Shown here piece by piece: positions 18,520 through 21,828 of a DNA stretch of 42,870 bases (positions are counted from its first letter, which is position 1; each line of letters opens with the position of its first letter). A model generated the notes under the pieces. It did no database searches. It was not told where the DNA came from and saw only the letters and a program-made list of their open reading frames with translations. The position numbers were made by a program, and so were the translations under genes. Where the stretch lies: positions 1 to 42,870 of the IMG/VR virus record IMGVR_UViG_3300045454_000129, one strand, 5' to 3'. The stretch is from a virus.

Positions 18520-18602
18520 GATGATGCTCCTTCTGCGACGCCTGGTCGCATCGGTGGTACGCCGACCACTTGGCCGGACGTTTAGGCGCTCGCGCGCGTT
18601 CG

Positions 18603-18675
18603 CAAAGGCGACAGGACTCGAACCTGCAACCTCCGGTTTTGGAGACCGGCGCTCTACCAGTTGAGCTACGCCAAT
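18603..18675 (-). tRNA. tRNA-Trp (anticodon CCA)
   Basis: A 73-base cloverleaf on the minus strand: D stem GCTC/GAGC, anticodon stem CCGGT/ACCGG with loop CTCCAAA (anticodon CCA) and T arm GCAGG-TTCGAGT-CCTGT. The acceptor stem is ATTGGCG against CGCCTTT, with two T-T mismatches (pairs 2-71 and 3-70). The 3' CCA is not encoded. It sits between the MuF head gene and the scaffold gene. The weak acceptor stem leaves open whether it is fully functional. Confidence 0.85.
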
Positions 18676-18849: not shown

Positions 18850-20898
18850 CTACGGGCCGTCCGAGAAGTGAAGCTGCTCGCGATACGACGCTCGCGGGCG
18901 CCCAGTTTGACGGATGAATTCGCGCATCTCAGCCTGGCGATCACGAATCTCGGACTTAGCACGCTTCCGTGACACGTCATCAGGGGCTGTGGCCGCATCG
19001 CGCTTGGCTGAACGGATGCGGCGCTCGAGCTCGCGCTGCCGTTCCCTCTCGGCCTCGGCCTCGGGGCTGTACTTGTAGTCCGCCTGCGGAATCAACAGGC
19101 CCGGCAAATGCGCGGCGAAACGGCATCGGCAGTTGTGCACGACGATAGACTGAGCGGTGTACCAACCACCCGCCGTCTGAAGGTTGTAGACATGCCCCGC
19201 AAAGTTCCGCCGCTCGACCTTGACCACCTGATCGAGCGTTACCGAGCCGGCGAGAGCGTCAAGCAACTCGCCAGCACTCACGGTGTCTCCCGCAGTGTGA
19301 TCACTCGCCGCCTGCGCGGGGCTGGCGTCGAACTGCGCGACCGTTCCGCCGCCATGTACACCCGCATGGCCAGCACGAGCGCCGAGGAGCGCTCCCGGCT
19401 TGCCAGAGGTGCTCACGACGCCGTGCGCGGCATGACCCGCACCATCAGCGACCTCGAGAGTCGAGCGCTCACCAAGCAGGCGCGGCTCTCGCACGCGACT
19501 GAGGATGAGATTGCTCTCGGGAGAGAGTTGGAGCGTCGTGGGCTCGCCGTCACTCCCCAGCAGGCGGTCGGCAAGTACAACGTCGACCTCGGAATCGGCG
19601 ATGCCGTCGCCGTGGAAGTCTTCGGCGGTTCCTGGCATCGAGACGGCCGCCACATGGCGCGACTGCCGAAGCGTCTCATAGACCTCGCCGATAGGGGCTT
19701 CAACACCCTCATGATCTGGTCGGCTCGTGAGTGGTTGCTCGACATCACCGCTGTAGCTGACGAGGTTGTGGCCTTCTGCGAGCGAACCCGCAGCGACCCA
19801 GCCTTCGTCCGTCAGTACCGGATGGTTTGGGGTGACGGAGAGTTCGCGACCGGCGGCAGTGTGGATGACGACGAGCTCGCCCTCAAACCAACGCGAGTCG
19901 GCAGCGGTCACGCCCGTCGGGGCTGAGACAGGCACGAACCGGGGGAAGCAATTCGGGTGATTCCAGCCGGCGTCCCGAGCCTGGTCGACCGTCCCCGCGA
20001 CCTGCACAGTCACCATGGCGTCGCTTGTCGCCGACTGCATGATGCGCGCGCCAGTGGGAGAGCCATCCAACGACACGATCTTCCCGATCCACGGCCCACA
20101 CTTCGAGCACGCGTCGAACCCGCCAACGATCACCGCCAAGCGGATGTTCGACTGCTGCAGTCGCCACTGCGTCGCATCGTTGAACGCTCGGTTCACAGCT
20201 GTGCGTGAAGCCATCTCTGCGTACGCGCCGATCGTCCACCGTCGGTTCGACACGTCGACGAAGCCAGTGACACCCTCAGCCAGGAACTTGCGCACGGCCT
20301 GCTGTTGCGCCTGCAGTCCTGTGCTCACGCCGAGGATCGCGTTCGGTGCGGTCATCGACACGATGCGCTGGTACGCGTCTTGTGGGTAGCGGGTGATGCG
20401 CTGGTTCATGGCTTCGAGGCGTGACTGCAGCGACAAGCCGAGCGATGCGACCGCTTGGCCCGCATAGCTTCCGATCGCGGGTGCTCCGATGCCGCTGACG
20501 CCGGCAAGGAGGCGTGAGCCGAAGCCGAGCATGGCCACCGCGGCGGCCTCGCCCTGCATGGCAGCTTCGCGCACGAGTTCCGCCGCCAGACCAGCGACGC
20601 GGAGTTGTTCGGTGATCGCCACAGCCAGTTCCTGCAGTTCCCGCATCGACTGGGCGCGGTGTGCAGCGAGCCGCGCGAGCGCCTCGTTCTGTCGACGTCG
20701 CTCCGCAGCGGTCAGGCCCCCTGCGACGATCGTCGACGGGGCGAGCTGCTGCAGTTGCAGGTCACGGTAGGCGCGTGCGGCGAGCTGCTGGATGAGCTCG
20801 TTCTCGGCTTCGCGGTACCGGTTCGACAGGTCGAGGGAGAGTTGCTCGATGAAGTCCTCAACGTCGAAGCCGTCGGGGTTGGGGAGAAACTGAGCCAA
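18850..20898 (-). CDS. MuF-type minor head protein interrupted by an intein
   Basis: A 682-residue precursor from TTG 20898 (GGGGGG five bases upstream). Residues 1-316 and 590-682 form a 409-residue SPP1 gp7/MuF-type head morphogenesis protein: a helical N-terminal part, then GGFDACSKCGPWIGKIVSLD and the signature GWNHPN-CRCRFAAHLPG. Residues 317-589 are an intein inserted exactly between HPN and CRC. After splicing the conserved motif would be restored. The C-extein is highly charged (EAEAERERQRELERRIRSAK). MuF proteins bind the portal and are packaged in the head. A second gene lies antisense within the intein. Confidence 0.9.
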   Translation of the reverse strand: MAQFLPNPDGFDVEDFIEQLSLDLSNRYREAENELIQQLAARAYRDLQLQQLAPSTIVAGGLTAAERRRQNEALARLAAHRAQSMRELQELAVAITEQLRVAGLAAELVREAAMQGEAAAVAMLGFGSRLLAGVSGIGAPAIGSYAGQAVASLGLSLQSRLEAMNQRITRYPQDAYQRIVSMTAPNAILGVSTGLQAQQQAVRKFLAEGVTGFVDVSNRRWTIGAYAEMASRTAVNRAFNDATQWRLQQSNIRLAVIVGGFDACSKCGPWIGKIVSLDGSPTGARIMQSATSDAMVTVQVAGTVDQARDAGWNHPNCFPRFVPVSAPTGVTAADSRWFEGELVVIHTAAGRELSVTPNHPVLTDEGWVAAGSLAEGHNLVSYSGDVEQPLTSRPDHEGVEAPIGEVYETLRQSRHVAAVSMPGTAEDFHGDGIADSEVDVVLADRLLGSDGEPTTLQLSPESNLILSRVREPRLLGERSTLEVADGAGHAAHGVVSTSGKPGALLGARAGHAGVHGGGTVAQFDASPAQAASDHTAGDTVSAGELLDALAGSVTLDQVVKVERRNFAGHVYNLQTAGGWYTAQSIVVHNCRCRFAAHLPGLLIPQADYKYSPEAEAERERQRELERRIRSAKRDAATAPDDVSRKRAKSEIRDRQAEMREFIRQTGRPRASYREQLHFSDGP
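19132..19950 (-). other. Intein in the MuF protein (273 residues)
   Basis: Begins with Cys (codon 19948-19950) and ends with His-Asn before extein Cys (Asn codon 19132-19134), so all splice-junction nucleophiles are present. Block A region: CFPRFVPVSAPTGV. Block B: ELSVTPNHPVLTDEGW, with the TxxH motif. Block F: FAGHVYNLQTAGGWY. Block G: SIVVHN followed by Cys+1. Between B and F there is no LAGLIDADG or HNH domain, only a Ser/Gly/Asp/His-rich linker of about 160 residues. That linker is the reverse strand of a nuclease gene (19192-19926, plus strand). Splicing should be competent; expression was not tested. Confidence 0.9.
19192..19926 (+). CDS. Antisense-encoded Vsr-like homing endonuclease within the intein
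   Basis: A 244-residue protein from ATG 19192 (GAAGG eight bases upstream), nested on the opposite strand of the intein in exact codon register. Residues 8-45 form an HTH (LDHLIERYRAGESVKQLAST, GVSRSVITRRL). Residues 51-82 are a basic AH-A-RG linker. Residues 100-215 form a Vsr/DUF559-like nuclease: YNVDLGIGD (D132), AVEVFGGSWHRDGRH (E142, W148, H149), then LIDLADRGFNTLMIWS. It fills the space between the intein's splicing blocks and runs over block B. Long antisense frames arise by chance in high-GC DNA, but recognisable HTH and nuclease motifs, a ribosome site and the location argue for a real gene. Its likely target is the intein-free MuF gene. Confidence 0.8.
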   Translation: MPRKVPPLDLDHLIERYRAGESVKQLASTHGVSRSVITRRLRGAGVELRDRSAAMYTRMASTSAEERSRLARGAHDAVRGMTRTISDLESRALTKQARLSHATEDEIALGRELERRGLAVTPQQAVGKYNVDLGIGDAVAVEVFGGSWHRDGRHMARLPKRLIDLADRGFNTLMIWSAREWLLDITAVADEVVAFCERTRSDPAFVRQYRMVWGDGEFATGGSVDDDELALKPTRVGSGHARRG

Positions 20899-21349: not shown

Positions 21350-21790
21350 TCAGGCAGCGCGGCGTCTCGCGCGAGCGGAGTCTGCATTGCAGGTGCGGCA
21401 GTACCGGGCCTTGCCGTGGCGGTAGGTGTTCGCCTCTGTGTACTCGTGACCACGGGGACAGTGAGTTATCGTGACCACAACCCGACGGTTGTTCTCTGCC
21501 GTGGTCACAGGCTCAAGATGCTCGGGGTTCACACAGTCGCGATTGCGGCACAGGTGATCGATCGCAAGGCCGAGCGGGATCGGGCCCACGAACATCTCGT
21601 ACGAGATGCGATGCGCGTACACCTGGAACCGTTCGCCAGACACGTGCATGCTGAACACGCCGTAGTCGTTATCGCTCTTCGCGGCAGTCCAGCGCCAGCA
21701 TCCATCGGAGTCGACTCGATACTTCGCGCGAAACCGTTCGCGGTCAGAGTCGGTGAACAGTTCGGAAAAGCTCGGGCGGCTACGCTTCAC
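21350..21790 (-). CDS. HNH endonuclease inserted between portal and MuF genes
   Basis: A 146-residue HNH protein: CWRWTAAKSDNDYGVFSM, YAHRISYEMFVGPIPLGLAI, DHLCRNRDCVNPEHLEPVT, then a C-terminal zinc ribbon (HCPRGHEYTEANTYRHGKAR followed by YCRTC). This is the standard phage homing HNH design. GTG 21790 was chosen over ATG 21814 because GGAGG lies six bases upstream. It is not next to terminase, so homing is favoured over a packaging role. Confidence 0.85.
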   Translation of the reverse strand: MKRSRPSFSELFTDSDRERFRAKYRVDSDGCWRWTAAKSDNDYGVFSMHVSGERFQVYAHRISYEMFVGPIPLGLAIDHLCRNRDCVNPEHLEPVTTAENNRRVVVTITHCPRGHEYTEANTYRHGKARYCRTCNADSARARRRAA

Positions 21791-21828
21791 GGTAGCCCTC
21801 CAATCGAGTCGCATTCGATTCAGGGTCA

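Follow-up and report, generated by a model that had tools for sequence, protein, structure and literature searches.

The minor capsid gene (MuF) of the virus record IMGVR_UViG_3300045454_000129, analysed over all of its 42 870 bases (hereafter the window), very probably carries a homing intein with its endonuclease gene on the opposite strand of the same bases, the two reading frames matching codon by codon. In the homing inteins described so far, the excised protein includes the endonuclease as an in-frame domain (reviewed in PMC3943268), and we found no published description of an antisense homing endonuclease gene in an intein in the open-licence literature. The two open reading frames, their register, the homology of their products, selection on both frames, the tuning of a start codon and ribosome site, empty insertion sites and horizontal transfer were all observed in the sequences compared here. 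Taken as a whole, it also seems likely that the arrangement represents a convergent, general class, involving at least two nuclease superfamilies (EDxHD/Vsr-like and LAGLIDADG-like) and numerous phage lineages, ranging from actinobacterial to Helicobacter prophages, with a 12-base core fixing a nuclease active site and an intein motif on opposite strands. Such a class, if true, would offer a present-day and experimentally tractable example of long in-register sense/antisense coding for two functional proteins, a kind of coding otherwise debated mainly from ancient or designed cases.

An intein and an antisense gene within MuF

The MuF gene occupies positions 18850–20898 on the minus strand (682 aa), and its product matches Phage_min_cap2 in Pfam (E = 5e-27) and a minor head protein in PHROG (1.3e-51). 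A tRNA-Trp (CCA) gene (18602–18675, minus strand) adjoins the head genes, and a 154-aa open reading frame at 21350–21814 (minus strand) resembles, by eye only, a free-standing HNH endonuclease. Between the N-extein (19951–20898, minus strand) and the C-extein (18850–19131, minus strand) lies an intein of 273 residues (19132–19950, minus strand) that begins with Cys directly after HPN and ends with HN directly before CRC, MuF reading ...GWNHPN on one side and CRCRF... on the other. The original prediction had placed a complete splicing intein here, and its bounds (Cys1 at 19950, terminal Asn at 19132) fit: the product matches Intein_splicing in Pfam (1.6e-6), and a profile built from 63 relatives retrieves the Mtu RecA intein (6.8e-11). 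On the minus strand, the Cys1 codon (19948–19950) is invariant in the alignment of relatives, as are His43 of the block B motif TPNH (residues 40–43, 19822–19833) and Asn273 of the terminal His-Asn (19132–19137; C-terminus VVHN, followed by Cys); Thr40, Pro41, Asn42 and Cys+1 (19129–19131) are nearly invariant. The Hint fold is present, the best fold matches of the intein AlphaFold model being the inteins 2imz and 4e2t (probability 1.00). This model reaches a pLDDT of approximately 95 at both ends, where the splicing blocks sit, is fair over residues 81–128 and falls near 35 over most of residues 129–221, which form a poorly ordered linker. Pfam and domain scans of the sense frame detected no LAGLIDADG, HNH or other endonuclease domain, in agreement with the original prediction.

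On the plus strand, an open reading frame of 244 codons runs from an ATG at 19192 to a stop codon at 19924–19926 (19192–19926). As both frames begin their codons at positions equal to 1 mod 3, every codon pairs exactly, as its reverse complement, with one codon of the other frame, which bears out the predicted register: intein residue r faces nuclease residue 254−r, and intein residues 10–253 are covered by the nuclease. This frame does extend across block B, as had been claimed, TPNH facing a conserved strand of the nuclease (its residues 211–214). The claim that it starts right after the C-terminal splicing block has to be corrected, since its ATG lies inside block F (HVYNL, residues 253–257; 19180–19194, minus strand).

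The plus-strand product matches REase_MTES_1575 (3.3e-8) and HTH_58 (3.4e-6) in Pfam and the homing-endonuclease model of PADLOC (4.3e-5). A profile of 65 relatives, 47 of which match REase_MTES_1575, retrieves from PDB the structure 3hrl (3.6e-8) and the catalytic domain of I-Bth0305I (3r3p, 9.6e-6), together with HTH proteins. Its AlphaFold model has a pLDDT of 91.8, and Foldseek places I-Bth0305I first among PDB entries (probability 1.00, TM to target 0.58, with a modest E-value of 4.4e-3). The protein combines an N-terminal HTH with an EDxHD/Vsr-like nuclease domain, much as first proposed. The HTH covers residues approximately 10–45 (19219–19326, plus strand; HTH_58 match, AlphaFold helices at 10–43), and the catalytic domain, delimited by the REase_MTES_1575 match, conservation and the fold match to 3r3p, covers residues approximately 104–203 (19501–19800, plus strand). 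Among relatives, the catalytic acidic residues are conserved at 0.98 (Glu106), 1.00 (Asp132) and 1.00 (Glu142), and the EDxHD residue His149 at 0.74; Asp151 is invariant only in a five-member actinophage alignment. Asp132 closes the motif YNVD (residues 129–132, with Tyr at 0.97 and Asn at 0.98), whose bases are read on the other strand as VDVV of the intein (19576–19587). A complete annotation of this nuclease was absent from every phage record opened.

Constraint on both strands

Searches with the nuclease frame yielded 85 distinct loci with a GC content of 0.36–0.71, and the intein frame was free of stops across the nuclease open reading frame in 84 of them. For comparison, the equivalent antisense register of the exteins contained 522 stops in 29 181 codons, and for single low-GC loci the probability of an open frame by chance was approximately 1e-3 to 1e-16. 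The expectation that the antisense frame would always be open in related inteins thus held for essentially all relatives, AT-rich ones included. Two loci (L094 and L095) show one stop in the nuclease frame and an open intein frame, and probably represent a dead endonuclease in an intein that is still open.

Selection was evaluated with a dual-frame codon test, in which substitutions are sorted by their effect in each frame, over 15 pairs. Within the overlap, omega was 0.24–0.63 for the intein and 0.15–0.46 for the nuclease, whereas in the exteins of the identical 15 pairs a fake antisense frame gave 0.56–1.13 and MuF itself 0.13–0.70; these close-pair omegas, like the codon counts given below, come from related sequences, and therefore the significance figures do not stand for independent events. 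A bias of omega arising from codon position 2 was considered and checked against this same fake frame. For the window and its relative L002, omega was 0.33 [0.17–0.51] for the intein and 0.25 [0.12–0.40] for the nuclease, against 0.96 [0.71–1.36] for the fake extein antisense frame. This test shows purifying selection acting on both frames and not on the intein frame only, in line with the proposal that the same bases are selected for both products.

Moreover, 27 intein columns are conserved at 60% or more beyond the expectation from synonymous choice in the nuclease frame, TPNH and FHGD among them. The second of these motifs belongs to a shared core, GTCGCCGTGGAA (19606–19617, both strands), which encodes VAVE of the nuclease (residues 139–142, including the invariant Glu142) and FHGD of the intein (residues 112–115). 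Of 77 distinct loci, 49 share this 12-mer without any change, and 61 do so if ATC is permitted as the first codon. The linker motif EDFHGDG, which had been suggested to mirror a nuclease motif and to mark a widespread class, does mirror the active site of the nuclease, and the class is widespread, as suggested; the motif is kept by the intein frame too, FHGD being conserved beyond what the nuclease needs.

The start of the antisense gene carries a similar signature. Its ATG is what the CAT codon for the His of GHVYNL in block F reads on the other strand, and a Shine-Dalgarno-like GAAGG (19179–19183, plus strand) lies 8 nt upstream, consistent with the ribosome site initially proposed. Among 39 loci, extein usage predicts 11.7 with CAT for this His, and 31 were observed; the Leu codon is CTC or CTT, which supply the GAG or AAG of the ribosome site, at 58 of 67 loci, where 26.6 would be expected. 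Both excesses reach P < 5e-5 in simulation, a value that is indicative since the loci are related. Judged from codon usage, block F of the intein is tuned to supply the ATG and the ribosome site of the nuclease. Expression of the nuclease independently of the capsid gene is suggested by a single line of evidence, namely this conserved start codon and ribosome site. A scan for a sigma-70-like promoter near the nuclease start found none, a weak test in a GC-rich phage. In Klebsiella phage RCIP0113 and Edwardsiella phage MSW-3 (L014:747–2321 and L018:338–2342), small plus-strand genes lead directly into the nuclease start and are a possible source of transcript.

Mobility, mechanism and competing explanations

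The inteins of Salmonella phage vB_StyS-sam and E. coli phage Snoke are 95.7% identical, whereas their N-exteins and C-exteins share only 66.3% and 79.5% identity. In LSPA1, the N-extein is Snoke-like (88.5%) and the C-extein sam-like (92.3%), and K1ind2 displays an exact empty site, the absence of the intein from this phage having been noted by the authors of Snoke (PMC6776784). Most Guernseyvirinae have the empty site. The intein-containing MuF query matched 497 records, 70 of them over 80% or more of its length; most of the remaining records listed cover approximately 55% of it, in two pieces separated by a gap at the intein. On the strength of these comparisons, which combine horizontal transfer with precise intein-less sites, the element is mobile.

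The following mechanism would account for these observations. Read in the sense direction with the capsid gene, the element would yield terminal splicing blocks joined by a poorly ordered linker, and the intein would excise itself, restoring MuF. Read antisense, from the start in block F to the stop near block A, it would yield a free-standing HTH and EDxHD/Vsr-like endonuclease able to cut intein-less MuF alleles at the HPN/C junction in co-infecting phages; repair of the cut allele would then copy in the whole element. The antisense nuclease thereby probably spreads the intein, with splicing, cleavage, homing and antisense transcription and expression as the predicted steps. A plausible origin would be that an endonuclease gene entered an intein in reverse orientation, in the one antisense register that allows stops to be avoided by synonymous changes, the antisense reading of the inserted gene then serving as intein linker. 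With its two halves sharing bases on opposite strands, the element stays short, and production of the endonuclease could proceed independently of capsid protein synthesis and splicing.

Three other readings were weighed against this one. Open antisense frames are readily found in register in GC-rich genes, and the helicase intein of Corynebacterium phage phi673 carries an in-register antisense open reading frame of 342 aa in which a nuclease domain was looked for and none recognised; the plus frame might then be a non-gene by-product of GC-rich coding in a stop-poor register. For the family of the window, this explanation is refuted and we regard it as extremely improbable, given the clear nuclease homology with a confident model (pLDDT 92), a nuclease-frame omega far from the near-neutral extein control, a frame that stays open at a GC content of 0.36 and the tuning of the start and ribosome-site codons. 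Hardly more credible is the converse, that the nuclease is the sole real gene interrupting MuF and the minus frame an open, non-splicing remnant. The nuclease frame does give the stronger tblastn signal, its scores mostly exceeding those of the intein frame (151 versus 74 bits in Angelicage), but the invariant or nearly invariant Cys1, TPNH, C-terminal Asn and Cys+1, the low omega and the 27 columns of the intein frame, and an insertion placed precisely at the HPN/C junction, together with exact empty sites, all point to a real intein.

A less improbable, though still unlikely, alternative accepts both genes but sees the main role of the nuclease in attacking co-infecting phages or the host, not in spreading the intein. 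Phage homing endonucleases can exclude relatives, which gives this idea some ground; horizontal transfer and precise empty sites within one phage subfamily nevertheless fit homing, and all full-length members found sit in an intein, no full-length free-standing relative being present among the loci found. Two candidates for such a relative were rejected: MT835811 (L128), a weak phage match, proved to be a chance match, and another (G002:C179) sits in a 1574-aa open reading frame.

A homing intein with an antisense endonuclease would share with PI-SceI and the Mtu RecA intein a splicing domain, insertion in a conserved motif, a patchy distribution and association with a homing endonuclease, but this endonuclease would be a separate protein encoded on the opposite strand. 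Its catalytic fold and its combination of DNA-binding modules with a nuclease domain recall I-Bth0305I, an EDxHD, Vsr-like enzyme of a mobile group I intron; that enzyme is intron-encoded and does not overlap another protein, whereas the protein described here has its HTH at the N-terminus and is encoded antisense to an intein. Dassa and colleagues reportedly described in 2009 a new homing endonuclease family associated with split inteins. Antisense homing endonuclease genes are known from Didymium nuclear group I introns (PMC9548176), where the gene likewise runs opposite to its host gene; there, splicing takes place at the RNA level and the opposite strand gives no protein, so that dual protein coding is not involved. 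The ShiLan domain, an out-of-frame HNH endonuclease encoded on the same strand within a methylase insert (PMC11855218), is also an actinophage homing insert with an endonuclease out of the frame of the host gene, but no intein or intron splicing domain is recognised in it, in contrast to the opposite strand and complete splicing domain of the window element. Finally, the Rodin–Ohno hypothesis derives aminoacyl-tRNA synthetases from in-register sense/antisense coding (PMC4082485), and thus also invokes two functional proteins from codon-for-codon complementary genes; that case is ancient and hypothetical, whereas the intein/nuclease case is present-day and testable. Since both products have expected, assayable functions, the element would be a tractable system for studying how proteins evolve codon for codon on two strands.

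Relatives, variants and an additional endonuclease type

A tblastn search with the nuclease matched 120 phage records, the intein matches lying on the other strand, in phages of Salmonella, Gordonia, Pseudomonas, Klebsiella, Vibrio, Idiomarinaceae, Edwardsiella and others (E-values of 6e-40 for Gordonia, 1e-30 for Salmonella and 5e-26 for Idiomarinaceae). The element is frequent in sequenced phages, including dozens of Salmonella phages, and Aaphi23, missed by tblastn, also carries the nuclease. Scans of IMG/VR and of genomes added approximately 90 loci; the element occurred in 5 of 396 genomes from the phylum of Micromonospora and in 1 of 398 from another phylum. Host genes among 65 scanned were Phage_Mu_F (38), Phage_min_cap2 (13), VG15 (1) and dCMP deaminase (1). 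In Rctr197k (L020) and at a further locus (L124), the intein and its antisense nuclease lie inside a deoxycytidylate deaminase gene instead of MuF, and in fEg-Eco06 (L019) the intein occupies a different site of MuF. These cases indicate movement between sites.

At the same MuF site, the intein of Gordonia phage Lennon contains an in-register antisense open reading frame of 196 aa (L022:2492–3082, minus strand), which resembles phage endonucleases (2e-6), I-MsoI (1.3e-3) and the PADLOC homing-endonuclease model (1.8e-3) and has no match in Pfam. As this frame is LAGLIDADG-like, two endonucleases of unrelated kinds seem to have come into this arrangement. Between Lennon and Barsten (L123), differences at nuclease codon positions 1, 2 and 3 number 16, 6 and 51 (dNN/dNS 0.13), a pattern that, on this comparison, is typical of a gene under selection in the antisense frame; the intein frame has changed far more (dNN/dSN 0.58). 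No relatives of the Lennon nuclease were found in the viral contig collection, and in Cyanophage PP a relative stands as a separate gene, flanked by terminase and portal. The Lennon-type frame is also present in Sitar, Nordenberg, Thing3, SchottB and Barsten.

Some variants depart from the common form. In Rhodococcus phage REQ3 (L130:2078–3856), Ala replaces Cys1 and the nuclease seems to lack the HTH; this relative seems to be either a decaying or an Ala1-type intein. Two lengths of intein and nuclease recur at many loci (e.g. L047, L057, L080 and L101), the intein counting approximately 270 or 320 residues, and the longer forms seem to carry an additional copy of the nuclease HTH, which appears in the intein as extra linker.
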